DNA of 24,717 nt from a virus: positions 1-24,717 of the IMG/VR virus record IMGVR_UViG_3300010155_004294. The stretch is one strand, 5' to 3'. This document shows positions 2,933-20,913 of this stretch, in pieces. The first letter of the stretch is position 1; every line of letters starts with the position of its first letter. Under the pieces are notes generated by a model. It saw nothing but the letters and a program-made list of their open reading frames with translations. It made no database searches and was not told the DNA's origin. The position numbers were made by a program, and so were the translations under genes.

Positions 2933-2940
2933 TATTTATT
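2933..2940 (-). promoter_or_regulatory. T4-type late promoter box AATAAATA
   Basis: AATAAATA on the minus strand matches the T4-like late consensus (TATAAATA in T4, NATAAATA in marine relatives). It ends 6 nt before the ATG of the 729-aa fibre gene. In T4 the box spans about -13 to -6, so the predicted start falls within 1-2 nt of the ATG and the message would be essentially leaderless. Confidence 0.65.
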
Positions 2941-4137: not shown

Positions 4138-4145
4138 TATTTATG
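4138..4145 (-). promoter_or_regulatory. T4-type late promoter box CATAAATA
   Basis: CATAAATA on the minus strand overlaps the portal stop codon and ends 7 nt before the ATG of the 91-aa gene. The predicted transcription start is about 2 nt upstream of that ATG. Confidence 0.55.
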
Positions 4146-5941: not shown

Positions 5942-6655
5942 TTATGTTGTTGATTTGGATGGTGAAATTGACACTGTTATCGATTTGGTCCTTGTTCTTG
6001 TATTTGTTTTTGTTCTGGTTTGTGTCCATGTTGGTGTTGGTGTCACAACAACGTTTGAAACCGTATTTGTATATGTTGGTGTCCTTGTTTGTGTTGGTGT
6101 CGAAGATCTTGTTTGTGTTGGTGTTGGTGTGAGTGGATCTGTGTTAGACGCCGTTATTGTGTGTGTCTGAGTTTGTGTTCTAGTTTGTGTTGGTGTTCTA
6201 GTTTGTGTTGGTGACTGAGTAATGCTCTTTGTAGGGGTAGGATAATTACTAGGAGATTGGGTAATAGATGTTGTTCTTGTCGGTGTCTGGGTTTGTGTTC
6301 TCGACATTGTTGGTGTTTGTGATCTAGTCTGTGTTTGGGTTGGTGATTGTGTAGTAGTATTGCTTGGTGTTCGAGATCTAGTTACGGTTCGTGTTGGTGT
6401 TACTGGTGGTGTTTGTGATCTAGTAACTGTATATGTAGGCGTTCTTGTTCCTGTAGGTGTTTGAGTTACTGATTTTGTTCTGGTTTTTGTAGGCGAAGGT
6501 GTAGGGGTTTGTGTAGGTGAAGGGGTTGGAGTTATTGTTCTTGTAGGTGTAGGCCATGGATAACCTTCAATATTAATTTTAGACCACTCAGTCCCTATTT
6601 CTGGACCAGTATTTTGACGTCTAATCAGGTCTCTAAATGTTGGAATACCCGCCAC
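5942..6655 (-). CDS. Thr-Pro repeat protein, probable virion fibre or extended linker (237 aa)
   Basis: Only about 35 N-terminal residues (MAGIPTFRDLIRRQ through EGYPWP) are of normal composition. The rest to the C-terminus is Thr, Pro, Gln, Arg and Ser in a degenerate hexapeptide rhythm of the PTQTRT type. Such chains are extended and often surface-exposed. The GTG at 6655 is chosen as start because a late box ends 5 nt before it and no ATG lies upstream in frame. It sits between the other Thr-Pro protein and the portal. No enzymatic motif is present. A virion role is inferred from the late box and neighbours; Thr-rich repeats are plausible O-glycosylation targets, which is speculative. Confidence 0.7.
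   Translation of the reverse strand: MAGIPTFRDLIRRQNTGPEIGTEWSKINIEGYPWPTPTRTITPTPSPTQTPTPSPTKTRTKSVTQTPTGTRTPTYTVTRSQTPPVTPTRTVTRSRTPSNTTTQSPTQTQTRSQTPTMSRTQTQTPTRTTSITQSPSNYPTPTKSITQSPTQTRTPTQTRTQTQTHTITASNTDPLTPTPTQTRSSTPTQTRTPTYTNTVSNVVVTPTPTWTQTRTKTNTRTRTKSITVSISPSKSTT
5945..6565 (-). repeat. Degenerate 18-bp coding repeat (Thr-Pro-Gln-Thr-Arg-Thr type)
   Basis: The coding strand repeats 6-bp and 18-bp units encoding PT, QT and RT dipeptides, making the top strand almost entirely G and T. Unit boundaries are imperfect, with insertions such as TTSITQSPSNYP. Slippage or recombination could change its length. Confidence 0.8.
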
Positions 6656-6660
6656 AATAT

Positions 6661-6668
6661 TATTTATT
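6661..6668 (-). promoter_or_regulatory. T4-type late promoter box AATAAATA
   Basis: AATAAATA ends 5 nt before the GTG start of the 237-aa Thr-Pro protein, placing the predicted +1 at the start codon itself. It lies in the 80-nt gap 6656-6735, the largest non-coding gap here; the rest of that gap shows only a 17-codon ORF that I do not consider a gene. The box probably also serves the portal gene. Confidence 0.65.
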
Positions 6669-6735: not shown

Positions 6736-7758
6736 TCACGCTATTGTTGGTGTTGGTGTTGGCGTTTGTGTCGGTGTTTGAGTTTGTGTAGCAGTTCGAG
6801 AAACTGTTCTTGATGGTGTTCTTGTAGGTGAAGCACCTCGCGTTTTAGTTTGGGTTTGGGTTCTAGTTTGTGTTGGTGTTTGTGTCGGTGTTTGTGTTTG
6901 TGTCGGAGTTTGGCTTGATGTACGTGTTCTAGTTCTAGTCTGTGTAGGTGTTCTTGTAGGAGAAGCTGTTTGGCTTGGTGTTTGTGTTCTTGTAGAAGTA
7001 ACAGTTTTGGTATATGTTTGAGTACGAGTCTGTGTTGGTGTCTGCGTTGGTGTTCTAGTTTGTGTTGGTGTGCGTGTCTGTGTTGGTGTTTGTGATCTTG
7101 TCCGCGTTACACCAATAGTGGGTGTTTGCGTTTGTGTTGGTGTTCTAGTTTGTGTTGGTGTTTGAGTTTTTGTTGATGTATTTGTTACATTTAGAGTAGT
7201 GGTTGGTGTGGGTGTTCTAGTTTGTGTTGATGTTCTAGTTTGCGTCGGTGTAGGTGTAGGTGTCCTTGGTACTAATCTAGATTGAACATAAAAAGGCGGT
7301 GCATTTGGATCTGTATTATAACCATAAGCACAACCTGGAAATTCCGTTTGGCCACCGGGTGATGTTATAATAATTTTAAATGGGCCGGTTGCTTTACCCG
7401 ATAACGCTGTTAGGTCTATACTAATTGTCTGCTTAGAATAATTTTTTAATACACCACCACCAAAATCTATCACGTTAAAACCACTAAACGCTGGGAATCT
7501 TGCCGATAAAGCTCTGTTAGTGGCAAAATAATTTACACTACTTAACGGGGTTGAAGATAAAGAACCTGAAAAGAAATCCGACGGGTTACCTGCACTTAAA
7601 AATGCTTGATAATATTTTGTAAGGCCTTTAACACCAGCTGATTTTAACCAAGGAGAATCAAATTCAAACACAGTGCGGTTTTCACTAAAAATAAGCTGAC
7701 CGCCATGTTGACCCGAAAGCGCATAATTAACTAATAAAGGTATTCTTTTTCTCACCAT
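6736..7758 (-). CDS. Virion-type protein: unique N-terminal domain plus long Thr-Pro repeat tail (340 aa)
   Basis: Residues 1 to about 165 look globular and beta-rich (for example SGQHGGQLIFSENRTVFEF and a later FKIIITSPGGQTEF). I do not recognise the family. Residues about 165-340 are a Thr/Pro/Gln/Arg repeat of PTQTRT type like that in the downstream gene, ending in TPTPTPTIA. The architecture of a small head plus long extended tail fits a fibre or whisker. The start overlaps the gp15-like gene by 7 nt, so it is probably translated from the late transcript started at 8565-8572. In T4, genes 16 to 19 lie between 15 and 20; here the two Thr-Pro genes occupy that place. Confidence 0.7.
   Translation of the reverse strand: MVRKRIPLLVNYALSGQHGGQLIFSENRTVFEFDSPWLKSAGVKGLTKYYQAFLSAGNPSDFFSGSLSSTPLSSVNYFATNRALSARFPAFSGFNVIDFGGGVLKNYSKQTISIDLTALSGKATGPFKIIITSPGGQTEFPGCAYGYNTDPNAPPFYVQSRLVPRTPTPTPTQTRTSTQTRTPTPTTTLNVTNTSTKTQTPTQTRTPTQTQTPTIGVTRTRSQTPTQTRTPTQTRTPTQTPTQTRTQTYTKTVTSTRTQTPSQTASPTRTPTQTRTRTRTSSQTPTQTQTPTQTPTQTRTQTQTKTRGASPTRTPSRTVSRTATQTQTPTQTPTPTPTIA
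6739..7262 (-). repeat. Degenerate 18-bp coding repeat, second copy region
   Basis: This is the same PTQTRT-type coding repeat as at 5945-6565, separated from it by the 80-nt gap and a short unique N-terminus. The top strand repeatedly reads like TGTGTTGGTGTTCTAGTT, an 18-bp unit. Two neighbouring genes with near-identical units could recombine. Confidence 0.8.
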
Positions 7759-8564: not shown

Positions 8565-8572
8565 TATTTATT
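8565..8572 (-). promoter_or_regulatory. T4-type late promoter box AATAAATA
   Basis: AATAAATA touches the helicase stop codon and ends 6 nt before the gp15-like ATG. The predicted +1 is 1 nt upstream of the ATG. It marks the boundary between the replication-type and virion-type halves of the window. Confidence 0.65.
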
Positions 8573-10200
8573 CAAACCAAACGTTCAATGAAATGTTTAG
8601 GTAGTTTGTTTTTATTTTGAGATATTAATGTTCTCGCTTTACCATCTAGTACATACGTTACTGCATAGTCTGTTTTAGATCTAGTACAACGGCCTGTAGT
8701 TTGTACTAATGTACATAACGCCTTATTTGCATACCAGTCTTTGTCCATATCAAACATCTTTTTAATTCTTTTATTTGATAAAGGTGGGTATGGCGTTTTA
8801 ACAATAATTTGGAATCTTCCCTTATCGTCAATTAAATCTGTACCAAAAGATAAAGAAGGTGAAACCAGAACCGTTGGTTCTGAACTACTAAAATGTTCTT
8901 TTAGTATTTGTTCATTAGTTGCAGTTTGTTCTCTAAATAAAAACCTATCACCAGTTAACCTGTTCTTTAAGTAATTGCATATTTCTAATGAATGGGTATG
9001 TACTATACCTTTTTCTCCTTTATGATGATCACATAAATCTTGAACATTCTTTGCTATAATTGGTAAAAACTTTTGTAGATTTTGATAATTAAGTACCGGT
9101 TTAGCAGAAAGATAAACCGGAGACTTACTCGGATCAAATACTGAAGGTGATTCTATATATTTGTATTTTTTAATACCTAAAACCTTAGCATACTGTTCGT
9201 GGTCTGTAATAGTAGCAGACATTAGTAAAATGTTATCACCATAGTCAAAAATATGCTTACTCAAATTGTCTATCTTAAGGGGTGTAAAACTAACTCCATC
9301 TGATTTTCGGTCAACAACGTACTCACATTTATGCCACGTTTGTTCAACAGTACTTAAATTACCATGTAAAGATTTTAAATATCTTAATTTTGAAACTTCA
9401 GGTAAAGACAAATTTATAACTTTATTGGTGCTTCTATTTGTGAGCTCATTTACTTTCTCACTTACTGAAAATATTAAACTAATAAGCCACCTATATTGTA
9501 TATCATACTTATCTGATTTTAATTTCGAAAAATCTATGTTGTTGAGCTCCAACCGTTTATAATCAACATCAGCACTAAATCTTCTAACCAATTCTTCTTC
9601 TAATTCAGAAGCTTCGTCACATACTAAAAAATTTTTACGCTTAACGTGCCCGGGTAGACTTAAAAACATTTTGTAATTAAGTACCGCAAAAGGGCTCGAT
9701 AGAGAAGTGTTTCTATTAGAAAAATAAGGACAACAATTTTTTTCCCAACACTCGTTTTTTAATTTAGGGGTAGTTACACAAGGAGCTGTCTCAACATCAT
9801 ATGTTTCATCTACACTACAAATATAATTTTGTTTGCCTTTTAATATTTCAATATCGTCAAATAATTTTTTATATTGATCTTGTAATTGCTTCGTGATGGT
9901 TAAAGCAAATGTACCCGATGCGGGTTCACCTAAACAGTCTGTTTCAAAAATATAATTACCGTGTTGGTCTTTTCGAAAAGCATTATAGGAATTAATTAGA
10001 CCTTTAAAATGGTCAGTAGGTGGTGTACCTACATTACCTAATGTTCTAGGAATAAAACTCTTACCGGTTCCAGTCGGTGCAGAAACAATTACAAATTTAT
10101 ACCCGTCATTAAACGCCTTTTCTACTTCTTTAAGAAGTTTAGTTTGAGAATTAGACGGGCTATAACCATCAGGAAACTTAGCAATATATTTGCTGAACAT
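8572..10200 (-). CDS. DinG/XPD-type superfamily 2 DNA helicase with Fe-S cluster cysteines (542 aa)
   Basis: Motif I (Walker A) is APTGTGKS at 41-48 and motif II is DEAS at 195-198, a DEAH-box variant. Between them Cys128, Cys141, Cys151 and Cys156 or 157 (the last just before PYF) match the four-cysteine Fe-S domain of XPD/DinG/FancJ helicases, which unwind DNA 5' to 3'. Motif III is SAT in LLMSATITD; motif V resembles SFGTDLIDDKGR and motif VI is QTTGRCTRSKTDYAVTYVLD with the catalytic arginines. The combination is specific to the Rad3/XPD/DinG group rather than the T4 UvsW or Dda helicases. It is preceded by a good sigma70-type promoter, suggesting early expression. It probably acts in phage DNA replication or repair. 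Confidence 0.85.
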   Translation of the reverse strand: MFSKYIAKFPDGYSPSNSQTKLLKEVEKAFNDGYKFVIVSAPTGTGKSFIPRTLGNVGTPPTDHFKGLINSYNAFRKDQHGNYIFETDCLGEPASGTFALTITKQLQDQYKKLFDDIEILKGKQNYICSVDETYDVETAPCVTTPKLKNECWEKNCCPYFSNRNTSLSSPFAVLNYKMFLSLPGHVKRKNFLVCDEASELEEELVRRFSADVDYKRLELNNIDFSKLKSDKYDIQYRWLISLIFSVSEKVNELTNRSTNKVINLSLPEVSKLRYLKSLHGNLSTVEQTWHKCEYVVDRKSDGVSFTPLKIDNLSKHIFDYGDNILLMSATITDHEQYAKVLGIKKYKYIESPSVFDPSKSPVYLSAKPVLNYQNLQKFLPIIAKNVQDLCDHHKGEKGIVHTHSLEICNYLKNRLTGDRFLFREQTATNEQILKEHFSSSEPTVLVSPSLSFGTDLIDDKGRFQIIVKTPYPPLSNKRIKKMFDMDKDWYANKALCTLVQTTGRCTRSKTDYAVTYVLDGKARTLISQNKNKLPKHFIERLV

Positions 10201-10207
10201 ATTTGTA

Positions 10208-10235
10208 ATTATATATTAATACAATAAGCAGTCAA
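10208..10235 (-). promoter_or_regulatory. Sigma70-type promoter, leaderless geometry, for the helicase gene
   Basis: TTGACT at 10230-10235 and TATAAT at 10208-10213 (minus strand) are separated by 16 bp. The -10 ends exactly 7 nt before the helicase ATG, so +1 should fall at or next to the ATG. The region is the 35-nt gap after the preceding gene's stop. Confidence 0.7.
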
Positions 10236-10577
10236 CTATTCTGAATCATACACTTCATCAATTATCTCATCGAAACTGCTTTTTTTAGTATGCATTTGGA
10301 TATCTTCAACTTGGTGTTGTGCCATCTCCGATAACAAGTCATCAGTTGCATTTCTTAAAACGCACCGGCAAACATCATAGTGACCTGACTGCGAATTTCT
10401 ACCAGTGAACCCCCTACCGTGACACCGTTTGCAGCTGTCTTTTGGTTGATCTGTTATTTTTAACTGGCCACAATCTAGGTAGCCAGTATACTGTTCATCT
10501 AAATCGTATACCTCACCGCTAAAAACGCTAAAATATTTTACTGTCTTGTCAGAAGTCTCGAAGATATCAATTTTCAT
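10236..10577 (-). CDS. Small protein with a Cys-rich zinc-binding-like motif (113 aa)
   Basis: I do not recognise the family. Residues about 49-72 carry CKRCHGRGF and, further on, CRC, a DnaJ-type or rubredoxin-like four-cysteine arrangement likely to bind zinc. The C-terminal ~35 residues are acidic. It overlaps the upstream gene by the classic ATGA and is followed by the helicase promoter. A zinc-dependent adaptor or DNA/RNA-binding regulator is possible, but the function is not shown. Confidence 0.65.
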   Translation of the reverse strand: MKIDIFETSDKTVKYFSVFSGEVYDLDEQYTGYLDCGQLKITDQPKDSCKRCHGRGFTGRNSQSGHYDVCRCVLRNATDDLLSEMAQHQVEDIQMHTKKSSFDEIIDEVYDSE

Positions 10578-10921
10578 AATTTATTCAATGACATTACTAC
10601 ATCATAAAATTTGGAATTCTTTTTTGGCTTAATCCTTCTTACTTTTGCTAATTTAACTATATCATTAAAAACAAATTTTTCTAATTTATAATCAAATTTG
10701 ATGCTGTCTTTTGTATCTATAAGTTCAAAAGGATACGGTACCTCAAATGTAGTAATTCCCCCTTTTTGTACTTCAAGCTTGAATATAATAAAAAACTCTT
10801 TTATGTTAGCGTTCAGTAATTTTCCTTTTTTAATTACTTTATCGTTAACAACAAAATTAATATCATTCAGAAAAAATTTTTGAAATTTTTCTTCTACTTC
10901 TTCTATTAGCTTTACAACCAT
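10574..10921 (-). CDS. Unknown basic protein (115 aa)
   Basis: I do not recognise the family. It is Lys-, Phe- and Ile-rich with no transmembrane segment or known motif; the middle (GGITTFEVPYPFEL) is beta-like and the end is basic (KVRRIKPKKNSKF). Its ATG overlaps the stop of the upstream gene by 1 nt (TAATG), and its stop overlaps the next start, so it is firmly embedded in a co-translated group with the helicase region. Confidence 0.6.
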   Translation of the reverse strand: MVVKLIEEVEEKFQKFFLNDINFVVNDKVIKKGKLLNANIKEFFIIFKLEVQKGGITTFEVPYPFELIDTKDSIKFDYKLEKFVFNDIVKLAKVRRIKPKKNSKFYDVVMSLNKL

Positions 10922-11298
10922 TACGTATTTTGAAAATTAACTTTTTGTTGTGTCGTTAAGTCTTGTAAATTTTTAACATAATATTCCCAAAACTCATCTG
11001 TAGCAGGTATCGTTTCAAGTAATTCAACATTGTCACAATTAATCTGACGATAATTCTGCATAAAAATATCCCAAACTATAATAAGATTTTTTACAGCTGG
11101 GTTATAATCTTGAAATCTAGAAGTGGGTCTAAAATTCAAAGTCAACCTACCATTAACACTATTCAGTAAAGTAAAGCTATTAGTGCAGAACATTCGTCTA
11201 GTGGGTGGTGCTCCTGGTTTAAAAACTCTTCTAACAAATTTTACTTCACAAACGTTATTTTTTAGAAGAGTTAATAGTTGTGATCTACCTACTCTCAA
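10921..11298 (-). CDS. Small SH3-like / WYL_2-type phage protein (125 aa), TTG start
   Basis: The N-terminal part (SQLLTLLKNNVCEVKFVRR, followed by a short loop and TRRMFCTN) resembles the Sm-like SH3 beta-barrel (WYL_2, formerly DUF2693) proteins common in T4-like phages, whose shared pattern is a helix, then VxxVxFTK-type strand, then RxMxCT. That is recalled similarity and not certain. The only start in the open frame that keeps this region is TTG at 11298; upstream an in-frame stop lies 2 codons away. It overlaps the GroES-like gene by 14 nt. Its role is unknown; such proteins may bind nucleic acid or protein. Confidence 0.55.
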   Translation of the reverse strand: MRVGRSQLLTLLKNNVCEVKFVRRVFKPGAPPTRRMFCTNSFTLLNSVNGRLTLNFRPTSRFQDYNPAVKNLIIVWDIFMQNYRQINCDNVELLETIPATDEFWEYYVKNLQDLTTQQKVNFQNT

Positions 11299-11695
11299 AA
11301 GGTTTTACTATTCCAAAAATTCTACTTTCATTAAGAAAAAGGCCCTTTTTAACTTTACCAATATCCTGAACTTCAAGGTTGGCTATAGGGATACCCAAGT
11401 TATTAGGAAAACAAATATGATCACCAATTTCAACATATTCACATTGACCCCCTGCTAGTAATACTTCCCCAATACGCCATGCTTTTGTATCAGCGTTTAA
11501 AGGAATATGAATACCGTTTCTTATAAGAGCCTGACCATCTTCTGTTTCATCTTTGTACTTACATAGAATGACGTCTTCCATTAACCTACACATTTGATAG
11601 CCGATGATTGCAGAATCAAATGAACCCTCGGTGGGTACTGAAAGATCAATAAGGCTTCTTTTAGGTGTTAATAAATCTATACTTTTTTGTGGCAT
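11285..11695 (-). CDS. GroES-like co-chaperonin, functional analogue of T4 gp31 (136 aa)
   Basis: Residues 35-105 follow the Cpn10 pattern: a start strand at CRLMEDVILCKYKDE, the mobile-loop and following strand at DGQALIRNGIHIP, then WRIGEVLLAGG at 73-83 and VEIGDHICFPNNLGIPI at 88-104, the counterpart of GroES 'VKVGDxVxFxxxxG'. T4 gp31 replaces host GroES so that GroEL can fold the large capsid protein; a virion-folding role is the likely one here. The N-terminal ~30 residues extend beyond GroES. No clear promoter is visible in the 24-nt gap upstream. The family is fairly clear in pattern, but identity is low and an alignment would settle it. Confidence 0.6.
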   Translation of the reverse strand: MPQKSIDLLTPKRSLIDLSVPTEGSFDSAIIGYQMCRLMEDVILCKYKDETEDGQALIRNGIHIPLNADTKAWRIGEVLLAGGQCEYVEIGDHICFPNNLGIPIANLEVQDIGKVKKGLFLNESRIFGIVKPFESR

Positions 11696-11719
11696 GTAAA
11701 GACTTAATAAATTAATATA

Positions 11720-12121
11720 CTATTTCAATGCTGTTTTAATGTTAGATATATCTACTTGTCCGCTATCAATATACTGCTGCACTTCTCTTTTTGAAATTTC
11801 AAATCTTTTAGCTAAAAATTTTACTATTTCATCGTAATTATCAATATCTTTACGTTTTTCTTTTTTGATATAATTTATCTTACCCGGTGAACCTCTTGGT
11901 ATTATTTTAACTAGATATTCATACCATTCTTTTTTCGAATCAAAAACGTTATAATACTTGTTTGTGGTTTCATTTATAATTTTTGCATTTTCTGGGGAGT
12001 ACATACTAACCCAACGATCAACCAAGTAACCGTTAAACTGGTCTTCATCTTCAACATTTTCAATAATAGTGCCTTTTTTACCAAAAATTATATCGTTTAT
12101 AAATGTGAAAATATTAATCAT
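11720..12121 (-). CDS. 62: Sliding-clamp loader small subunit, T4 gp62-like (133 aa)
   Basis: The gp44-gp62 complex loads the gp45 sliding clamp on DNA for replication and late transcription. The protein matches the shape of marine gp62 proteins: an N-terminal FxF-type helix, a FNGYLVDRWVSMYSPEN segment at 29-45, then KIIPRG at 72-77 and KFLAKRFEISKREVQQYID at 101-119, equivalent to T4's AVPRG and KLLAKRYQV segments. It is shorter than T4 gp62 (187 aa), as are the marine ones that I recall. It overlaps the GT2-like gene by 8 nt and lies outside the expected 44-62 neighbourhood, since no gp44 gene is adjacent here. It implies that a gp45 clamp exists elsewhere, consistent with the late promoters. 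Confidence 0.75.
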   Translation of the reverse strand: MINIFTFINDIIFGKKGTIIENVEDEDQFNGYLVDRWVSMYSPENAKIINETTNKYYNVFDSKKEWYEYLVKIIPRGSPGKINYIKKEKRKDIDNYDEIVKFLAKRFEISKREVQQYIDSGQVDISNIKTALK

Positions 12122-12917
12122 CTAAATTTAAAAGTTCTTTTTTTCTTGTATAATCATTGTACCATTTTATATTTGAATCCATATCTTTCAAGTGGTTTTC
12201 GTAATGGAAACCATGATGTGTTTTTTTAGCATATTCTTTAGTACGTTTACTTTTTTCTGTATTTATATGGCGGAAATAATCTACACCTAAGTATCTAAAA
12301 GACAAATTATGTATAACGGTATCGTCCCAAAATACATCCCCCTTAGATTGAGCAGTATGGCAACCAAAATCGTATCGTATATCGACCTTTGATGGATTAA
12401 AGATTAAATTTTTATCTAAAGTAATATCGCGCATACCTTCTAGTGTATAATTATCCAAAATATCCTCACAAGTAAATTTTGTTTCTGGAACACTATCCAT
12501 AACTACATCATACCCCTTCATTTTAAAAATTGTGGTGTCAGAATCTTTTTTCGAATCTAATATTTCGATCAACCGTCTGTTAAATAAAAATTCATCTATA
12601 TCTACAATAAACACCCAATCATAGTTTGATTCGTCAGCTGGATTAGAAAATTGCTTATAATAATGATTTCTAAACAACATCAATACATCTTCTCTATGTT
12701 CTTTTGTGTCGCAATGAATTAAAGAAACGTTTGGGTTTTGAGCACTAAAAGATTGTATTAATTCAACAGAAGAATCATCACTCCCAAAATCTATATAAAT
12801 TAGATTGCTTTCTTTATTTTTTTGTAAATCAATCAGATAGTTATAGTAATGAAAGTGAAAAGGTAGCAACCGTTCTTCATTATAAACAGGGCTGATTATT
12901 AATAATTTACTTTCCAT
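12114..12917 (-). CDS. GT-A fold glycosyltransferase, GT2/GT92-like (267 aa)
   Basis: The N-terminus (LLIISPVYNEERLLPF, residues 5-20) and the DID at 106-108 in WVFIVDIDEFLF form the usual GT-A nucleotide-sugar and metal-binding set. A C-terminal histidine-rich segment (HTAQSKG, later HHGFHY) follows, as in GT92-type and Glyco_tranf_2_4-type enzymes. It most likely transfers a sugar from a nucleotide donor in the cytoplasm; donor and acceptor are unknown. It is co-translated with its neighbours, overlapping the 49-aa gene by 11 nt and gp62 by 8 nt. Confidence 0.8.
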   Translation of the reverse strand: MESKLLIISPVYNEERLLPFHFHYYNYLIDLQKNKESNLIYIDFGSDDSSVELIQSFSAQNPNVSLIHCDTKEHREDVLMLFRNHYYKQFSNPADESNYDWVFIVDIDEFLFNRRLIEILDSKKDSDTTIFKMKGYDVVMDSVPETKFTCEDILDNYTLEGMRDITLDKNLIFNPSKVDIRYDFGCHTAQSKGDVFWDDTVIHNLSFRYLGVDYFRHINTEKSKRTKEYAKKTHHGFHYENHLKDMDSNIKWYNDYTRKKELLNLDD

Positions 12918-13056
12918 CTTTTAGATCGGTACCTAAGAGTTTAGCACCACCTAACTTGGCTTCATACTCATATAAGTGTTTTTTCCAAGTATGGTATTCG
13001 TATAATTCTCTCAAATATCTAAACCAATTTATTATCATCATAAACCTATATTTCAT
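12907..13056 (-). CDS. Small basic aromatic protein (49 aa)
   Basis: A complete 49-codon frame runs from the ATG at 13056 to TAA at 12907, starting 4 nt after the DUF366-like stop and ending inside the start of the glycosyltransferase. The N-terminal half (MKYRFMMIINWFRYLRELYE) is amphipathic and aromatic; the C-terminal half includes EAKLGGAKLLGTDLKDGK. No family is recognised. It fills what would otherwise be a 140-nt gap in a densely coupled operon, which supports a real gene; with no homologue shown, the call is moderate. Confidence 0.6.
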   Translation of the reverse strand: MKYRFMMIINWFRYLRELYEYHTWKKHLYEYEAKLGGAKLLGTDLKDGK

Positions 13057-13060
13057 AATA

Positions 13061-13654
13061 TTACTTAATTATTACTTTCGACGTCGCAATGAACATATCA
13101 TCATTCAATTCATAAAAAATTTTCTGTACATCTTTCATAAACTCTTCTGCTACTTCGTCATTAAATTCTGTACTAAATGCAAATGCAGGAGCCTTCTTAC
13201 CAGCTTTTATATTAAGAGCAGTATGACCTAAAGCAACACCAGATTTAACATAAGTGATGCTCACACTTACTTTGCCTTCTTGCTGAGTAACACCACCTTG
13301 TGTAAATTCTTTTTCTACCATAATATCATCACCATCCATCCTTACAGGACAATTCAAATATTTCGCACTACTTAGAAGATTAGCAATATGGGTGTTTAAA
13401 AGTCTTTGATATGCAACCGCACCAAATGCATTGTCTAAAATTGGAATCTCCCATAGAAAGTTTATTGCATCATCACTCCAAATAAATTCTTGTCGATCAA
13501 TATCTTCTTGATCAATCATTCCGTCTGCTAATACCTCCATTGGAGCTCTAAAACAAAGAATATTACCTATAGGTAATACTTTATCTTTAAAGAACTTATA
13601 TGCAAATCTGCCGTGAAGTAAGTTACCGTCGTATTTATCGATATTAAATTCCAT
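13061..13654 (-). CDS. DUF366-like phage protein of unknown function (197 aa)
   Basis: The arrangement RAPMEVLADGMIDQEDI at about 36-52, IWSDDAINFLWEIP next, then AVAYQRLLNTHIANLL, MDGDDIMV and KVSVSITYVKSGVALGHTALNI follows the DUF366 pattern, with conserved acidic clusters (DQEDI, SDDAINF) and the KVSVSI strand. Family members in bacteria and T4-like marine phages have no proved activity. The gene begins with a TATAAT 7 nt upstream, inside a palindrome, so it may open a sub-operon with the 49-aa protein, a glycosyltransferase and gp62. Confidence 0.6.
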   Translation of the reverse strand: MEFNIDKYDGNLLHGRFAYKFFKDKVLPIGNILCFRAPMEVLADGMIDQEDIDRQEFIWSDDAINFLWEIPILDNAFGAVAYQRLLNTHIANLLSSAKYLNCPVRMDGDDIMVEKEFTQGGVTQQEGKVSVSITYVKSGVALGHTALNIKAGKKAPAFAFSTEFNDEVAEEFMKDVQKIFYELNDDMFIATSKVIIK

Positions 13655-13656
13655 AT

Positions 13657-13671
13657 GATCTATTATAGATC
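13657..13671. repeat. Perfect 6-bp inverted repeat over the -10 box
   Basis: GATCTA at 13657-13662 and TAGATC at 13666-13671 are separated by 3 nt. The palindrome covers the TATAAT of the promoter at 13662-13689 and ends 2 nt from the start codon of the DUF366-like gene. It could be an operator or a methylation-sensitive GATC pair; both are untested ideas. Confidence 0.4.
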
Positions 13672-13689
13672 AAGCTACTCAGAATTCAA
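13662..13689 (-). promoter_or_regulatory. Sigma70-type promoter, leaderless geometry, for DUF366-like gene
   Basis: TTGAAT at 13684-13689 and TATAAT at 13662-13667 are 16 bp apart. The -10 ends 7 nt before the ATG at 13654, the same spacing as at the helicase gene. It lies at the end of the pyrophosphatase gene. Confidence 0.6.
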
Positions 13690-14205
13690 TTTATTTTTCC
13701 ACCTTTTGTGTGCCGTGTTAATTATTTTTTTGGCTTCAGATTTGTTTAACCATCCATTAACAATAGAGATTTTATCCTTTTCTAGATCTTTATAATGAGT
13801 AAAAAATTGCAAAGTAGTTGCTAACCAATGAGGATCTAAATCTTTCAAATTTTTATAGTCTTTAATATGCGAAGTGGGTACACCAACTACTTTATAATCT
13901 TTTTTACCTGTATCATCCATGTCCAAAACACCAATCGGTTTGACTTCTACTAGAGTACTTGTGCGTAATGGTACGTTATTGTATATCAATATATCCAATG
14001 GGTCGTCGTCTAAAGCATAAGTTTGAGGAATAAATCCATACGAGCACGTATATCTCATACTACTATACAAACATCTACTAAGTCTAAATATATTAAGCTC
14101 TTCTACGTATTCATATTTTGAATTGCTGTCTTTTTCTACTTCCACTACTGCATTAACTACTAGTGGGTAATCTTGCCCTATTGGTATATCATTTACTAGA
14201 TTCAT
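13675..14205 (-). CDS. ppa: Inorganic pyrophosphatase, family I (176 aa)
   Basis: Soluble family I enzymes hydrolyse PPi to two phosphates, pulling forward polymerase and nucleotide-sugar reactions. The length (176 aa) equals the E. coli enzyme. Recalled E. coli active-site residues have counterparts here: KYE at 30-32 (K29), Arg44 (R43), SYGF with Tyr56 (Y55), DDDPLD with Asp66, Asp68, Asp71 (D65, D67, D70), Asp98 and Asp103 (D97, D102), Lys105 (K104), and HYKDLEK with Tyr138 and Lys139 (Y141, K142). An active enzyme is therefore expected. It overlaps the methyltransferase-like gene by 17 nt in the sugar operon, suggesting co-translation. It is an auxiliary metabolic gene by context; its benefit to glycosylation or DNA synthesis is inferred. 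Confidence 0.92.
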   Translation of the reverse strand: MNLVNDIPIGQDYPLVVNAVVEVEKDSNSKYEYVEELNIFRLSRCLYSSMRYTCSYGFIPQTYALDDDPLDILIYNNVPLRTSTLVEVKPIGVLDMDDTGKKDYKVVGVPTSHIKDYKNLKDLDPHWLATTLQFFTHYKDLEKDKISIVNGWLNKSEAKKIINTAHKRWKNKLNSE

Positions 14206-14833
14206 TTTTAAAAGCCTTTGGTTTTGTAACTAAATATCCTTGATGTTTGTACACTTTTTGAAAATCGTGTGTGTCTTTAAATTTATCATACAAAAAAGAT
14301 AAATCTTTTCCTTTTACGATTTCTTCTCTTGTAACATTATGGTTGTTCATTTTACAGTGTTCATTAAACCCCACACCTTTTATTTTTATGTCCTCATATA
14401 GCCAAAGATCATCACTAACTATAATATCGTTATATTTTCCTATTCTTTTACTAATTAAATCTATCTCTCTTTCTAGAGGCAGATTAGTATCTTGTTCCAT
14501 TTTTAGACATTCTTCATACTTTACTAAGTGAGCGTCAGCACCCGGAAAATGTGCATCAAGCCAAAAAAATGCATCTCTGTTTATAGTAGGTAATATTTCT
14601 TCTAAAACATTAAATGAATTACCTTCATAAATCGATACATAAGGGTAACCAGCAAATTTTTCTTTAGCTTTTTTAGCTAACGTGGGTTCTATTTCTATTG
14701 AGTGTATATCATAAAACCCTGCTCTATGTGCTTCAAGTATACCATGACCATATAAAGTACCGGTTTCAATAAACGTACCAATTCCGGTATTTCTACGAAT
14801 ATTTTTTAAATCAAAATCTCCTATCGTACCCAT
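14189..14833 (-). CDS. Class I SAM-dependent methyltransferase-like protein (214 aa)
   Basis: Residues 21-31 (FIETGTLYGHG) form a motif I-like glycine loop, followed by SIEIEPTLAKKA with the acidic residues that usually contact the cofactor ribose, and FFWLDAHF where motif IV is expected. This pattern fits the class I SAM methyltransferase fold of the small FkbM/MTF24-like type. Substrate is unknown; in a sugar operon, O-methylation of a sugar is plausible. A bare TATAAT lies 7 nt upstream of the ATG. A non-methylating or degenerate enzyme is possible, since the GxGxG is not classical. Confidence 0.6.
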   Translation of the reverse strand: MGTIGDFDLKNIRRNTGIGTFIETGTLYGHGILEAHRAGFYDIHSIEIEPTLAKKAKEKFAGYPYVSIYEGNSFNVLEEILPTINRDAFFWLDAHFPGADAHLVKYEECLKMEQDTNLPLEREIDLISKRIGKYNDIIVSDDLWLYEDIKIKGVGFNEHCKMNNHNVTREEIVKGKDLSFLYDKFKDTHDFQKVYKHQGYLVTKPKAFKNESSK

Positions 14834-14840
14834 GACCTAT

Positions 14841-14846
14841 ATTATA
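14841..14846 (-). promoter_or_regulatory. TATAAT -10 element 7 nt upstream of the methyltransferase-like ATG
   Basis: A perfect TATAAT lies 7 nt before the ATG at 14833. No convincing -35 is seen at 16-17 bp. The spacing matches the two full sigma70-type promoters in this window, so it is listed with lower confidence. A weak AGG (ATAGGTC) also sits just before the ATG. Confidence 0.45.
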
Positions 14847-14847
14847 C

Positions 14848-15576
14848 TCACCAGTCACAAAAATCCCATTTAACTTTTTTAGGAATATAACCAACGTGTC
14901 CCCAAAAAGTAGGTTGCCATTTACTGTGTAAATTTAAAACTTTTGCTTTTAAATTTAACTTTTCTAAAATATAAATAAAGCACGTTTCAATCATATGGAT
15001 CTCTGATGCATTTTCAAAAATCCAACACCAATCAAATACACTGAACCCCCTGTATGGTTTTAATTTAATGATTTTTTTATCACCATCGTAGGGAACGTTT
15101 CTGGTAGTGTGATTTGGAAACGTACCGTATGTATCACTCACTACAACAAAATCATCACCGTCTTTAATTCTAAGAAAATCTTTTAACTCTTTTTCCTTTT
15201 CTTGATCTCTTCTAAAATTAAAATATAAATCCCAATCTTCAAACCCTTCTTGCATATTACAAAAATAATATTTTGCTTTCATTACAGACATATTAGTATA
15301 AATTTGATCTGAATGTTGTAACGGTACGTATAAAATGTCATCCTTTTTTACAATTTGATTTATATCAGTATTATATAATTCTGATGTATCTTTAAAATTA
15401 GATAAAGGAATGAAATTAATATTTTTCGCATCTAAATAATCATTAAGACAAGCACAATATTGGTCTTCAACTGGCCAACAAACTTCATCAACGGTACCTT
15501 CTAATAACTTTTTTACAATCTTTTGAGTATAAAAAACATCACCTATACCACCTGGTTGCCGTATTAAACATTTCAT
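14848..15576 (-). CDS. GT-B glycosyltransferase, GT9/heptosyltransferase-like (242 aa)
   Basis: The N-terminal motif IRQPGGIGDVFYTQKIV (residues 5-21) is the hallmark of ADP-heptose/GT9-type enzymes (RxxGxGDxLxxxP), and the C-terminal half holds the glycine- and acid-rich helix-strand layout (ENASEIHMIETCFIYILEKL) of the GT-B donor-binding domain. At 242 aa it is shorter than classic heptosyltransferases. A GTG at 15591 opens the frame 5 codons earlier, but the ATG at 15576 overlaps the previous stop as TAATG and gives the natural N-terminus. Donor and acceptor are unknown. Confidence 0.65.
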   Translation of the reverse strand: MKCLIRQPGGIGDVFYTQKIVKKLLEGTVDEVCWPVEDQYCACLNDYLDAKNINFIPLSNFKDTSELYNTDINQIVKKDDILYVPLQHSDQIYTNMSVMKAKYYFCNMQEGFEDWDLYFNFRRDQEKEKELKDFLRIKDGDDFVVVSDTYGTFPNHTTRNVPYDGDKKIIKLKPYRGFSVFDWCWIFENASEIHMIETCFIYILEKLNLKAKVLNLHSKWQPTFWGHVGYIPKKVKWDFCDW

Positions 15577-16367
15577 TATATTTCTAACCACTTAGGGTCA
15601 ATCAAATCTTGAGCTGGGGGCCCTTTTGGGCCAAACCATTTTTTAGGACAAGTTACAATTTCTTTTTCTTTACCTAAATATGCCCCCCATGATGAAAAAG
15701 AACTATTTCCCATTATAACCGAATCACACTCAGATAAAACACACATATCCATCAATTCATCAGACCCATTAGCTAAAACATTTTTACTATCGAACTTAAA
15801 TTCTTTTCTAACTTGAGTTTCATCATCGGTACAATACAAAAACAATGCATCTTTATCAAAATTTTCTTTAGCTTTATTATAATAATCGCTCCCTAAAATA
15901 GGAAATATCTGAGGATTTTTATAATAATCACCTCTTCTAATATGCACACCCACTACTTCAGTAGCTTGATATTTTTCTTTTAGTTTTCGTATAGCTTGCT
16001 TAGTTTTGGTTACACAATCAACATTAAATGTAAAAATATTATTCAATTCATCTCTATCTAAATTTTTAAAATATTTCCAGCTTTGAAAATAACCATCATA
16101 CACCACGTCGTGTTCAATACCCAAAAATGGTAATTTTTTATATTTGAAAGAAGGTTCTCTACATGCAATATGAAAAGGTAAATTTATTGTTTCTAAATTT
16201 TTGTATAAGCTCTTCTTATATGTTTTAGGGTGGTGACCTTGCATTGCACCAAACTCTAAACTATAGTTAATAACAAATTTTACATTATACTCTTTAGCAT
16301 GTGCATAAATTGTTGCAATTTGATATAACTGATTTCCTAACCCGCCTTTTAATTGTACTGTAATCAT
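15576..16367 (-). CDS. GT11-type alpha-1,2-fucosyltransferase-like protein (263 aa)
   Basis: GT11 enzymes transfer fucose from GDP-fucose. The hallmarks are present: GGLGNQLYQIA at 8-18, DGYFQSWKYF at 91-100, HIRRGDYY at 142-149 (the GDP-fucose-binding HxRRxD), and CDSVIMGNSSFSSWGAYLG at 214-232. Length (263 aa) is in the family range. The ATG at 16367 is chosen over an upstream Met in the same frame because it overlaps the preceding stop (TAATG) and leaves a clean N-terminus. In bacteria the enzyme adds terminal fucose to O-antigen or other glycans. Acceptor here is unknown; a lectin-like activity or another 6-deoxyhexose is possible. Confidence 0.88.
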   Translation of the reverse strand: MITVQLKGGLGNQLYQIATIYAHAKEYNVKFVINYSLEFGAMQGHHPKTYKKSLYKNLETINLPFHIACREPSFKYKKLPFLGIEHDVVYDGYFQSWKYFKNLDRDELNNIFTFNVDCVTKTKQAIRKLKEKYQATEVVGVHIRRGDYYKNPQIFPILGSDYYNKAKENFDKDALFLYCTDDETQVRKEFKFDSKNVLANGSDELMDMCVLSECDSVIMGNSSFSSWGAYLGKEKEIVTCPKKWFGPKGPPAQDLIDPKWLEI

Positions 16368-17194
16368 TAATCGAATAAAAATGGATACTCTTTGTATATC
16401 CAATCTTCAGGAACTCTAAATTCCTCTACTTTGTTAAAATTTTCTTCTACCGCGTCAAGCCTATAAGCATAAAAATCAATATCTATTTTATCGACTATGT
16501 CATCAAGCTCTTCAATAGTATCAAAATATATTATACCTTCCGGATTAAAAAATTTATTAACTGAAAATTTGTCACCGTAGTAAATAGGTATTGTTTTTGT
16601 AGCAAAAGCATCTAATAATTTTTCTGTCCAATAACCTCTAACAATTGCATTTTCAATAGTAACAGAAAAATAATATGGATTGAGACCGTCTTCTTTTTTT
16701 TCTAAAACATTCTCTGCGTACTTTCCATAACAATCCATTTTATCAGTAGTTTTATATCTATCTACTATCATATGTCTTAATCTATGACCTAAAGTGAATG
16801 CTTTATCAGAAGCAAAAATACTACAAAATTTTGATTTACTATCAATTCCTTCGTAATTATGAATCCAACATCTACCGTGAGGGTAATACAAATAATTTTC
16901 CCCCTTATCAATAAGTTTTTGATCAAAAGTTAAAACAAAATCATAAAGCCTATTGTTTTGTTCAATCCAATTATACATATGCGGACTAATACTTCTAGGT
17001 TCTAATAGCCAGGCCACTTTACGTTTCACACCACCTGCTTTATTTACATCTTCTAAACACAAATCAGTAATAAAACAACTTTTACTGACGGGTGCATTAT
17101 CAGCAACCCACTCAACAAATTTATTTTGTGCTAGATGGCATGATGACTTATCATACCCAATAAAATTTTTATCTCGTATATTTGCTTTTACCAT
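16367..17194 (-). CDS. GT10-type alpha-1,3-fucosyltransferase-like protein (275 aa)
   Basis: The C-terminal block from about residue 175 (FSVTIENAIVRGYWTEKLLDAF followed by TKTIPIYYG, ending near 207) is the signature of GT10 fucosyltransferases, in which FxxxxENxxxxxYxTEKxxxAxxxGxVPxYxG lines the GDP-fucose site. The N-terminal half is divergent, with KRKVAWLLEPRSISP at 58-71. It sits next to the GT11-like gene with a 1-nt overlap, so two potential fucosyltransferases are co-translated. The donor could be GDP-fucose or a related GDP-6-deoxy sugar; no donor-synthesis gene lies in this window. Confidence 0.82.
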   Translation of the reverse strand: MVKANIRDKNFIGYDKSSCHLAQNKFVEWVADNAPVSKSCFITDLCLEDVNKAGGVKRKVAWLLEPRSISPHMYNWIEQNNRLYDFVLTFDQKLIDKGENYLYYPHGRCWIHNYEGIDSKSKFCSIFASDKAFTLGHRLRHMIVDRYKTTDKMDCYGKYAENVLEKKEDGLNPYYFSVTIENAIVRGYWTEKLLDAFATKTIPIYYGDKFSVNKFFNPEGIIYFDTIEELDDIVDKIDIDFYAYRLDAVEENFNKVEEFRVPEDWIYKEYPFLFD

Positions 17195-18069
17195 TCCCAG
17201 CCTTTAATATGTTTCCACAACTCTTGCTCAGTCATTTCTTCTATTTTAGTACATTCCTTTTGATTTTCAAGATAAGGATCAAAAGTGTCTGGTCCACCAT
17301 CATATTTGGTAGTTTCTGCATCTGTCACAGTAGTATTTGTGTGAGGAAAATGATATAAAAAATCTAATCTCTGATTACATTTATGAATGTCGTATCCTAA
17401 AATTCTCATACGACTTACCATTTCACTATCTTCATAACCCCAGCCTACAAATTTTTCATTAAACCCTTTTATTTTTTTAAAATCTTTTCTTAACCCCAAC
17501 AAACAACCACCAACCGCCGTGCAGCCCATTACTTTACAGTATTCATAATCCATACGATCAGGCCATGAAGGGAACCCTCTTTTATAATTTTCTAAAGCCA
17601 TAGAAATCATTTTTAAATCAGGGCAAAACGTGTCAAGAGTTTTTATTGATTGTTGATTTCTAAAAATCTCCTTTGCTTTATAATTCAAATATAACGGCAT
17701 GCCGTTATAACACACACCAAAACCTGGTTCTTTCTTTAAAGTATCTTTTATTTTTATAATTTGTTCCGGTTTTGCAACACAATCTAAATCTAAACACAAT
17801 ATAAATTTTCTACTTGCTTCTCTTATACCTTTATTATATGAAGCGCACTTTTTAAAATGCAAGTCATTATATGAGTGTATTATTTTATCTTCTTCACATA
17901 AAGGTATGTATTGAGACAATACAGGGGTAATAGAATCTTCTACATAAATAAATCTACTATTTTTTGTGTGTTGTTTAAAAAACGCATAGGATAAAAAAGC
18001 ATTAATTGCTCTTTCGTGGTTATCTATCCTAGATGCTACAACTATATCAATGTCTTTAAAATCTATCAT
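17188..18069 (-). CDS. GT-A glycosyltransferase with GWGYED motif, GT2/GT7-like (293 aa)
   Basis: The N-terminal DIVVASRIDNHERA and the DLD at 94-96 in LCLDLDCVAKP give the nucleotide-sugar and metal site. FNEKFVGWGYEDSEM at about 203-217 is the acceptor/divalent-metal region seen in GT7 and the chondroitin-polymerase-type GT2 enzymes (GWGxED). The gene at 19005-19859 has the same motifs at the same residue numbers and is a tandem paralogue. Acceptor is unknown. It overlaps the GT10-like gene by 7 nt. Confidence 0.8.
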   Translation of the reverse strand: MIDFKDIDIVVASRIDNHERAINAFLSYAFFKQHTKNSRFIYVEDSITPVLSQYIPLCEEDKIIHSYNDLHFKKCASYNKGIREASRKFILCLDLDCVAKPEQIIKIKDTLKKEPGFGVCYNGMPLYLNYKAKEIFRNQQSIKTLDTFCPDLKMISMALENYKRGFPSWPDRMDYEYCKVMGCTAVGGCLLGLRKDFKKIKGFNEKFVGWGYEDSEMVSRMRILGYDIHKCNQRLDFLYHFPHTNTTVTDAETTKYDGGPDTFDPYLENQKECTKIEEMTEQELWKHIKGWEW

Positions 18070-18072
18070 ATA

Positions 18073-19005
18073 TTATTCTAAAAAGTTAGGTATACCGAGT
18101 TCTTGTCTTAGTAGCTTTACAGAATGAGACCCGTCACCGATATAACGATTGTCAAGTATAGTGTAAAACCAAGTATTGGGGTCAATTTTTTCTCTGTCTT
18201 CTCCCACTAGAAGCTTTTCTCTAACTATTCTATCAGCGTGGTATTTCAAATCACTTTCTTTTGTTGCAAAATCTCTAAACGGTACTATATCATTAAAAGC
18301 TTCTGTACGTCTTTGCAAAACGTCTACACCTGATCGATGATATAAAAAATCTCTTCCAGGGGTATATATATCATCAAAAGTAACATGTAGACTTTTGTCA
18401 TATAAATCAAACCCACCTTCTGGTTGACCCAAATTTGTATGCATGTGGCACTCAACTATTTCTTTATCGTAGTGACCTATCCTATCTTTTCCCGGGCCTT
18501 TAATTTTAATACGACGTTTAAATTCTTTTTTATTATTCGTATACATGTCATTAATCAAATGATTAAGAACTTCATTATCCGCAAAGCCAGGATATGCCAT
18601 CTTAGGAGCTAACTCAATAATTTGATCTACTATCCTTGCTGTTGTTTCATCATTTTTCCAAAATCCGTGTCCTGATGCACAATTAGGTAAAGGTGAACCT
18701 AATTGTTGATCTAAAATAAGAGAGTATTTGTTATCAATATAATCTTCAAACTTTTTATAAAAGTTCATTACCAGACAATCAGCATCTATCCAAAAAATCC
18801 AATCGTAATTAGGTAAATGTTTTTTTATGAAAGGGTATCTAGCAAAAAAAGATTTACCCTCTTCTTGATGAACACCATCAACATTAGAAGTAAAAAAGTG
18901 TATATCGTAATTGTGTTTTAAACAATATTGCTGCAAAATAGGCAACGTTATATTCAATAAATTTAACTGTTTTTCATCAGCCCCAGTTAATACCCCAATT
19001 TTCAT
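18073..19005 (-). CDS. GT34-like / DxD glycosyltransferase (310 aa)
   Basis: The N-terminus (MKIGVLTGADEKQ) and the run KKHLPNYDWIFWIDADCLVMN with the DAD at 74-76 match the galactosyltransferase/alpha-1,6-mannosyltransferase (GT34, GMA12/MNN10) arrangement, including a later histidine- and aspartate-bearing block (CHMHTNLG, then HVTFDDIY). GT34 members are retaining, so a different linkage from the GT2-type enzymes is expected. Met5 of the longest frame is taken as start, at 19005, because it overlaps the preceding stop as TAATG. The specific sugar is unknown. Confidence 0.7.
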   Translation of the reverse strand: MKIGVLTGADEKQLNLLNITLPILQQYCLKHNYDIHFFTSNVDGVHQEEGKSFFARYPFIKKHLPNYDWIFWIDADCLVMNFYKKFEDYIDNKYSLILDQQLGSPLPNCASGHGFWKNDETTARIVDQIIELAPKMAYPGFADNEVLNHLINDMYTNNKKEFKRRIKIKGPGKDRIGHYDKEIVECHMHTNLGQPEGGFDLYDKSLHVTFDDIYTPGRDFLYHRSGVDVLQRRTEAFNDIVPFRDFATKESDLKYHADRIVREKLLVGEDREKIDPNTWFYTILDNRYIGDGSHSVKLLRQELGIPNFLE

Positions 19006-19859
19006 TACATTACCCAACTTCTTGTATATTCTTTTAACTCGTCAGAAGAAGAAGTTTCAACATGAGTCATAATTTTTTTATTTTCTTTATAAAAGGGTTG
19101 TTTTTCCTTTTCTGAACCAGTGCCGTCAAAATGATGTAAATGCCATATAACTTTACCTTCACCTTCAATTCTACCTACACCATAACCTAACTTCGCCATT
19201 CTATAGGGGGCTTCATCGTCCTCATATCCCCAACCTAAAAAATTAGGATTATATCCATTACATCTAATCATATTATCTCTTCTACCCATTACACAACCAC
19301 CTTTACTTGATACGTGGCCAATCATAACGCCTTCATACACATTATCAATATAACTAAACAGGGTTTCTAATGAACTATCTCTAGATCCGATATATGTTTT
19401 AAATTTTTCTGGTATTTTTAAATCACCATAATCTAAAGACGAACAAAATTTATCTTTTAATTCTTTTTCAGCACATAAAAACAACCCGTTATATGGATAT
19501 AACAAACAACTATTTTTATCTTTAGATAAAAGGTTTGAAGTTTCTAAAATTTGCTTTGGGTGAATTATTACATCAACGTCAATAAGATTTAAAATATTTG
19601 TTTTGGCTAATTTAATTCCTTTATTGAACCCTTCACCTTTTCGCCATTCGGTATCACTTTTAGAAAATATACATACGTCATCTTTATGCAAATCTAATAA
19701 AACGGGTACCTTACATTCACTATCATCTTCTATAAAAATATGAATATAATTTTTACATGTTTTTCTATAATAGCCATGCATAGCTTTTAAATTGTTTTTT
19801 CGTTCTTCGTTGTCTATTCTAACAAAGGTTAAAAAAGTTATACCTTTTAAGTCATACAT
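19005..19859 (-). CDS. GT-A glycosyltransferase with GWGYED motif, tandem paralogue (284 aa)
   Basis: It has the same layout as the gene at 17188-18069: an N-terminal strand ending in RIDNEERKNN, DVD at 94-96, a Gly-Gly-Cys pair at about 187-189 and NPNFLGWGYEDDE at about 204-216. It is likely a duplicated, diverged sugar transferase acting at a different step. It overlaps the GT2-like gene upstream by 8 nt and the GT34-like gene downstream by 1 nt. Confidence 0.8.
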   Translation of the reverse strand: MYDLKGITFLTFVRIDNEERKNNLKAMHGYYRKTCKNYIHIFIEDDSECKVPVLLDLHKDDVCIFSKSDTEWRKGEGFNKGIKLAKTNILNLIDVDVIIHPKQILETSNLLSKDKNSCLLYPYNGLFLCAEKELKDKFCSSLDYGDLKIPEKFKTYIGSRDSSLETLFSYIDNVYEGVMIGHVSSKGGCVMGRRDNMIRCNGYNPNFLGWGYEDDEAPYRMAKLGYGVGRIEGEGKVIWHLHHFDGTGSEKEKQPFYKENKKIMTHVETSSSDELKEYTRSWVM

Positions 19860-20874: not shown

Positions 20875-20878
20875 TGTA

Positions 20879-20886
20879 CATAAATA
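20879..20886 (+). promoter_or_regulatory. Second late-type CATAAATA box, tandem with 20893
   Basis: CATAAATA on the plus strand, 14 bp upstream of the box at 20893-20900. Its predicted start (near 20892) would give a 15-nt leader for the plus gene. It overlaps the minus-strand early -10 by 1 bp. It may be a chance match or a real tandem site. Confidence 0.35.
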
Positions 20887-20913
20887 TTTTAGCATAAATA
20901 ATTAAAATGTCAA
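20886..20913 (-). promoter_or_regulatory. Sigma70-type promoter for the sugar-transfer operon
   Basis: TTGACA (perfect) at 20908-20913 and TAAAAT (5 of 6) at 20886-20891, 16 bp apart, on the minus strand. The -35 lies over the first codons of the plus-strand gene. The predicted +1 falls near 20879, a few nt before the ATG at 20874. It is interleaved with the plus late box. Confidence 0.65.
20893..20900 (+). promoter_or_regulatory. T4-type late promoter box CATAAATA for the plus-strand gene
   Basis: CATAAATA ends 6 nt before the ATG at 20907, placing the predicted +1 1 nt upstream of the start codon. It is the only late box serving a plus-strand gene and lies inside the spacer of the minus-strand early promoter. 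Confidence 0.65.

Follow-up and report, generated by a model that had tools for sequence, protein, structure and literature searches.

Analysis of IMG/VR virus record IMGVR_UViG_3300010155_004294, a 24,717-base fragment of phage genome (the window), and of its metagenomic relatives points to a T4-type phage lineage in which two promoter classes abut the start codon. Very probably, transcription from both its host-type early promoters and its gp55-type late promoters starts (+1) on the start codon or immediately beside it, which would give leaderless mRNAs; the word 'leaderless' is one that we infer from the geometry of the promoter boxes. In the proposed scheme, host RNA polymerase would read a TTGA-N16-TATAAT-N6-8-ATG class located chiefly ahead of replication, nucleotide and 7-deazaguanine genes, and RNA polymerase carrying the late sigma factor gp55 would read TAAATA boxes placed 5-7 nucleotides (nt) ahead of late gene starts. 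The resulting mRNAs would have no leader and no Shine-Dalgarno (SD) sequence, and would presumably be translated through recognition of the 5′-terminal AUG. Genes inside operons, which overlap or abut their neighbors and have few boxes and no SD, would probably be reached by coupled translation.

The sequence-only reading of the window had pointed to a perfect TATAAT ending 7 nt ahead of the ATG of a helicase gene, a DUF366 gene and a methyltransferase-like gene, with -35-like hexamers 16 bp above the first two -10 boxes. All of these elements were located (Table 1). The exact TATAAT-N7-ATG strings, all minus-strand, span 10198-10213, 13652-13667 and 14831-14846, and each opens an open reading frame (ORF). 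A -10 close to TATAAT, as in sigma70-type promoters, is present at 3/3 sites, and a -35 about 16-18 bp further up at the helicase and DUF366 sites. The three boxes would be -10 elements of sigma70-like promoters, with +1 on the start codon or 1-2 nt before it. With d as the number of nt between promoter box and start codon, TATAAT stands at d=7 in 3 of the 31 called window genes (one of the 31 calls, 497-751 on the plus strand, is a spurious ORF opposite a gene cut by the window end), and when the 40-nt upstream regions were shuffled 1000 times with dinucleotides preserved, no shuffle reached at least three sites at any one distance. In the whole window the string TATAAT-N7-ATG is observed five times against 0.98 expected, which is moderately unusual.

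Collecting relatives from IMG/VR (37 loci for the helicase, 79 for DUF366, 27 for the methyltransferase-like gene) allowed us to follow the boxes through orthologs. Boxes were counted in all helicase and DUF366 loci except 2 and 8, respectively, in which the start is cut off or the match begins late; in addition, 24 of the 79 DUF366 loci and 14 of the 27 methyltransferase-like loci were viewed directly. A box lies 5-9 nt upstream of the helicase in 35/35 loci with a usable start (16 TATAAT, 19 TATACT). For DUF366, the same interval in 71 loci contains TATAAT in 51, TATACT in 1, only TANNNT in 15 and none of these in 4. The helicase box and its TTGA are retained despite diverged flanks, for example in loci L019, L021 and L042, as is the DUF366 box in L048 and L053. 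In L042, whose helicase is 46% identical in protein sequence, the arrangement is TTGACT-N16-TATAAT-N6-GTG, and the helicase TTGA stays at 16 bp in several orthologs with differing flanks. A T4 middle (MotA) promoter, which would have a MotA box TGCTT(T)A near -30, was rejected: TGCTTA is present at the window helicase and in its nearest relatives, but other orthologs have different sequence there and still keep TTGA. Comparison of the window with 16 helicase and 9 DUF366 loci shows that, from codon 2 onward, most changes affect third codon positions, with no such pattern upstream. Because codon-wise conservation begins at those ATGs, both start codons are correct, and a misplaced start is ruled out for these two genes. 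The DUF366 -10 box is enclosed by a near-perfect 17-nt palindrome, TGATCTATAATAGATCA (13656-13672), which is retained in the closest relatives but absent from L019, L048 and L053; it could be an operator.

To see the class beyond these loci, the window and 12 related records were scanned together (13 records, 865 called genes, 398 families). Genes were called, in records and isolates alike, by a simple longest-ORF caller (at least 70 aa, first ATG within 50 codons), and families are single-linkage blastp clusters. Within 40 nt upstream of starts, 53 of 105 TATAAT occurrences fall at d6-8, and TATAAT at d6-8 is found in 32/398 families against a mean of 6.1 and a maximum of 14 in 100 shuffles. 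The sequence-only reading had suggested a host-type promoter class, second to the late boxes and sharing their geometry, and would have been refuted if the lead genes of other operons showed no -10 enrichment; the enrichment is present, which supports that reading, and TATAAT and TAAATA boxes alike abut the start codon, in different families. TTGA at a 15-18 bp spacer accompanies 21 of the 32 families, at exactly 16 bp in 17 of them, compared with 4/38 for TATAAT at d10 or more and 51/823 for all plus-strand TATAAT of the records. Among 20 permutations of its letters, for which the median was 8 family-by-distance matches, TATAAT at d6-8 reached 39; the best-scoring other permutation, TTAAAT (34 matches), is part of the late boxes. 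A k-mer scan given no motif beforehand placed TAAATA, TATAAT and TTGATT positions among the strongest signals, and a smaller scan of 49 loci gave the same picture as the 13-record scan. Bacteroidetes-type promoters have a -7 box, TAnnTTTG, plus an upstream TTG. This type was rejected here: TTG-N19-TAnnTTTG occurs once and TTG-N18-21-TAnnTTTG twice in the 865 upstream regions, whereas TTG-N19-TATAAT is found 35 times in the 60 nt preceding starts, and 33 of these are at d5-8.

The late boxes show the same placement with a different sequence. Within 40 nt upstream, 104 of 135 ATAAATA occurrences are at d5-7, and TAAATA at d5-7 marks 93 families against a shuffle mean of 7.3 and a maximum of 15; TTGA at 15-18 bp accompanies only 12 of these 93. 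Five of the 13 records encode a gp55 homolog (E 2e-25 to 1e-21); no homolog was detected in the window, itself a fragment. Profiles of gp45 and gp33, built from isolates, had no match in the 13 records, perhaps because the proteins are too divergent.

Sorting the 865 genes by box places 60 in the TATAAT class, 189 under TAAATA and 564 under neither, with a further 52 having a weaker match (TTGA-N15-18-TANNNT), a count that comes without a shuffle control. That a single gene has one box or the other carries little weight, because both boxes cannot easily share one place; consistency at the family level means more, and among families with at least two members only f10 and f47 mix box classes. 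Eighteen TATAAT-class families were scanned for function, several of them picked though the box is present in only some members. Eleven have replication, recombination, nucleotide or metabolic names (DNA polymerase, UvsX, UvsY, UvsW-like helicase, gp32, exonuclease, QueD, QueE, GTP cyclohydrolase, transaldolase, dehydrogenase), one has a weak excisionase match, six are unknown and none is a named virion family. The 12 TAAATA-class families scanned comprise two tail, one holin, one PhoH and one of unknown function, with seven lacking a match. QueD, QueE and GTP cyclohydrolase belong to the 7-deazaguanine pathway (for example L134:12130-12972, L144:9604-10365 and L160:13644-14453), and DUF366 may group with these genes.

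SD sequences are missing from every gene class of the lineage, where the motif does not rise above background. An SD was scored as AGGA, GGAG or GAGG at -17 to -4, with -57 to -44 as the control window. In the window's nearest records it precedes 16/367 genes versus 30/367 in the control, and in other record groups 13/287 (control 20), 6/116 (8) and 0/95 (4). By the same procedure the isolates reach 26-57%: HTVC008M 76/176, Mosig 50/111, T4 63/127, S-PM2 29/110 and Syn9 23/80, the last four each sampled over 100 kb (two 50-kb pieces for T4). No SD precedes any of the 60 TATAAT-class genes, and upstream gaps of 5-80 nt contain one in only 4/375 genes. In-frame starts further down that are preceded by an SD are rare as well (5/112 genes with TATAAT or its weaker form, 14/189 with TAAATA, 50/564 others). 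Boxes follow the operon layout: 79/115 genes have one where the upstream gap measures 5-14 nt, as against 29/353 where it is below 5 nt or the genes overlap.

At sigma70 promoters, +1 lies about 6-8 nt below the -10 box. TATAAT is most often at d=6 and ATAAATA at d=5, and +1 would therefore fall on or beside the start codon's first base. Several observations weigh against such a reading or narrow it. Upstream of the methyltransferase-like -10 box a -35 hexamer was sought and none was found, and the box itself recurs in 3 of the 14 relatives viewed, all 96-100% identical, with 11 distant ones lacking it; this site is the weakest of the three examples, and weak taken alone. Among genes with an upstream gap of at least 15 nt, 194/384 have neither box. 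Membership is partial in large families, such as DNA polymerase (1/4) and the UvsW-like helicase (1/5). The box distance ranges over 5-9 nt, so that a leader of 1-3 nt is possible on some mRNAs. Finally, an initiator at the A of ATG would be expected to have a pyrimidine at -1, and this is seen in 26/36 TATAAT families versus 164/295 others (p 0.07), a trend only.

There are other possible explanations for boxes in this position. The boxes could be promoters while the RNA starts elsewhere, for instance by read-through from upstream, in which case the genes would have normal leaders and the close spacing would be no more than a product of compact gaps. Intergenic gaps are short and T4-type phages read through operons, but this explanation is unlikely given that 0/127 T4, 0/110 S-PM2 and 0/80 Syn9 genes have either box this close (TATAAT at 5-9 or TAAATA at 4-8), SD sequences being common there, that the present lineage has no SD to serve a leader, and that TATAAT and ATAAATA both peak where +1 falls on the start codon. 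We consider it very unlikely that TATAAT is instead a translation signal, AT-rich and either S1-binding or structure-free, for SD-less initiation as discussed for Bacteroidetes. A lineage without SD motifs would suit such a signal, and AT-rich signals upstream of genes are reported in Bacteroidetes and other groups (PMC3160421). A translation signal would nevertheless leave unaccounted for the TTGA at exactly 16 bp that accompanies the box, and the distance of TATAAT above other permutations of its letters; moreover, operon-internal genes, which also need translation, rarely carry boxes, and two different boxes mark different families.

Equally small is the probability we attach to TATAAT being a variant of the T4-type late box, read by gp55 rather than by host sigma70. 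TATAAT is similar to the T4 late promoter, TATAAATA, and sits in the same position; however, T4 late promoters have no conserved -35 (PMC2988020), in contrast to the TTGA of most TATAAT families, which is uncommon in TAAATA families, and the named TATAAT families are replicative or metabolic where the named TAAATA families are mostly tail or lysis. Chance is scarcely credible as the source of the pattern. On this view TATAAT is frequent near ATG simply through the AT-richness of intergenic DNA, and the three sites were selected after the fact; two of the five window strings (plus strand, 20634 and 21437) do lie away from gene starts. Shuffles, letter permutations, ortholog conservation and -35 co-occurrence all exclude it, so that chance is refuted for the class as a whole, though it may account for the methyltransferase-like site alone.

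The arrangement proposed here, promoters with +1 at the start codon, has counterparts in cellular genomes. Bacterial leaderless genes likewise have TATAAT or TANNNT directly before the start codon; both the TA-like signal about 10-12 bp ahead of the start and the lack of an SD sequence are found in this lineage. A box so placed was taken to indicate leaderless genes by Zheng et al. 2011 (PMC3160421), and such near-start promoters were tested experimentally in a Deinococcus-Thermus study (PMC12340547). Those genes are cellular, whereas the present case is a T4-superfamily phage known from sequence alone, and unlike the bacterial systems it lacks SD in all gene classes and has a second, late box equally placed. 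The TAAATA boxes resemble T4 late promoters in being a TATA-type box without a -35, mostly before virion genes, with a gp55 homolog present. In T4, the late TATA box replaces the -10 about one turn above +1, with no -35 (PMC2988020), and the gp55-dependent promoter has the cyanophage form NATAAATA (PMC2988020, PMC2984593). The late box of T4, S-PM2 and Syn9 is mostly at least 20 nt ahead of the start, where in this lineage it abuts the start codon.

Closer placement of the late box is seen in other isolates. The Pelagibacter phages HTVC008M (NC_020484, L173-L175) and Mosig (MT647606, L182-L183) have TAAATA 4-8 nt upstream, mostly at exactly 5, in 15/176 and 6/111 genes; they differ in that SD is common (43% and 45%) and a close TATAAT is found in 1/176 and 0/111. 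The Rhodothermus phage RM378 (NC_004735, L185-L187) has a late-box-like TATTTA 7-11 nt ahead of 21/146 annotated starts and a weak SD signal (26/146 versus 13 in the control), and differs from the lineage in its box sequence (TATTTAAA), the lack of a TATAAT class and a more distant portal. Late boxes abutting the start codon thus extend beyond this lineage; the TATAAT class and full SD loss are found only in it, compared with the six isolates examined. Leaderless phage mRNA as such is already known, phage transcripts being often leaderless according to the AR9 paper (PMC5312081). In the open full-text literature, as far as it was available, we found no account in which leaderless-type promoters are a general feature of a T4-type phage. 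The paper on Far-T4 genomes uses none of the words promoter, Shine and leaderless in its main text, late-promoter prediction is reported to have failed in pelagimyophage genomes (PMC7029224), and the available portions of Sullivan 2010 (PMC3037559) and of a cyanophage review (PMC2984593) cover late promoters with no mention of leaderless genes.

Gene content places the window in a T4-superfamily myovirus: Pfam finds a gp20-type portal (PF07230, 1.4e-104) together with another T4 virion gene, gp15 (PF16724, 7.1e-17), and related records carry gp43, UvsX, UvsY and gp32. The window portal is about 32-34% identical to its best matching isolates, all cyanophages, and neither the window (no near match) nor DUF366 (no match) found a counterpart in the phage record collection. 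A portal tree groups the 21 metagenomic records in a single clade (100/100) that excludes the five isolates, although long branches, T4 above all, leave the root unsure. Late boxes occur in each of the 21 clade records and TATAAT boxes in all but one, fragment L105, with SD counts low throughout. Portal identity to the lineage is about 31-33% for HTVC008M and about 25-26% for RM378, a remote Far-T4 member that is described as distant from other Far-T4 phages (PMC4360716) and as the sole cultured one (PMC7198788, PMC13037479). Given that remoteness, its lower identity carries no weight either way for a Far-T4 assignment of the lineage, for which the criterion would be portal/gp23/gp17 monophyly with the Lake Pavin Far-T4 contigs.

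Papers on Far-T4 phages propose Bacteroidetes or Flavobacteriales as the hosts of those phages (PMC7198788, PMC13037479). For the present lineage a Bacteroidetes host would explain the missing SD, yet its TATAAT/TTGA promoters do not match the Bacteroidetes form. Searching genome contigs with the helicase gave no match, and the DUF366 profile matched a single 5.8-kb contig (L184, JAUHZG010000131.1) in a Gammaproteobacteria bin, 53% identical to the phage DUF366; the contig is probably a piece of phage that was binned with the bacterium, and so no host is claimed. A tRNA search and an Rfam scan of the window had no match, and a few tRNAs are present in G003 and G004.

T4 is the textbook system for timed promoters and SD-led translation. 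We see about even chances that a deep T4-superfamily lineage gave up both SD sequences and 5′ leaders, with early and late promoters defining the start codon and leaderless translation running throughout infection, possibly bypassing host mRNA control or shut-off. If true, a whole T4-type program can run on leaderless mRNAs, and this phage group would be a test case for leaderless gene expression. It would also provide a sequence rule by which the true start codons of these uncultured phages, and their promoters, could be located, and would constrain the host to one whose RNA polymerase reads TTGA-N16-TATAAT and whose ribosomes are independent of SD. The cultured RM378, with its similar late-box placement, makes the leaderless idea testable now.

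Table 1. Predicted promoter elements and associated genes in the window
Feature	Position	Strand	Remarks
Helicase -10 box TATAAT	10208..10213	-	7 nt ahead of start codon
Helicase -35-like TTGACT	10230..10235	-	16 bp above -10 box
DinG/Rad3-type helicase gene (Helicase_C_2)	8572..10200	-	Pfam PF13307 1.8e-17; downstream of this predicted promoter
DUF366 -10 box TATAAT	13662..13667	-	7 nt ahead of start codon
DUF366 -35-like TTGAAT	13684..13689	-	16 bp above -10 box; within 3′ end of upstream pyrophosphatase gene
DUF366 gene	13061..13654	-	Pfam PF04017 6.8e-19
Methyltransferase-like -10 box TATAAT	14841..14846	-	7 nt ahead of start codon; in 14-nt intergenic gap
Methyltransferase-like gene (label of the sequence-only reading)	14189..14833	-	
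Late box TAAATA (in AATAAATA)	8565..8570	-	6 nt ahead of gp15 (tail sheath stabilizer) start
Late box TAAATA	2933..2938	-	6 nt ahead of start, gene 737-2926
Late box TAAATA	4138..4143	-	7 nt ahead of start, gene 3855-4130; overlaps portal stop codon
Late box TAAATA	6661..6666	-	5 nt ahead of GTG, gene 5942-6655
Late box TAAATA	20895..20900	+	6 nt ahead of start, gene 20907-22019

Of the gene products in Table 1, the helicase has NCBIfam matches that are all far under the cut-offs, and the methyltransferase-like product has no match in Pfam and NCBIfam scans. Elsewhere in the window, glycosyltransferase-like and other genes form a block between late genes (12114-20895) that includes the inorganic pyrophosphatase gene (13675-14205). 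Beside late genes, at 5942-6655 and 6736-7758, are genes for two proteins that contain long Pro/Thr-rich repeats (TPTQTRTPTQT type), and the GC skew is reversed there.

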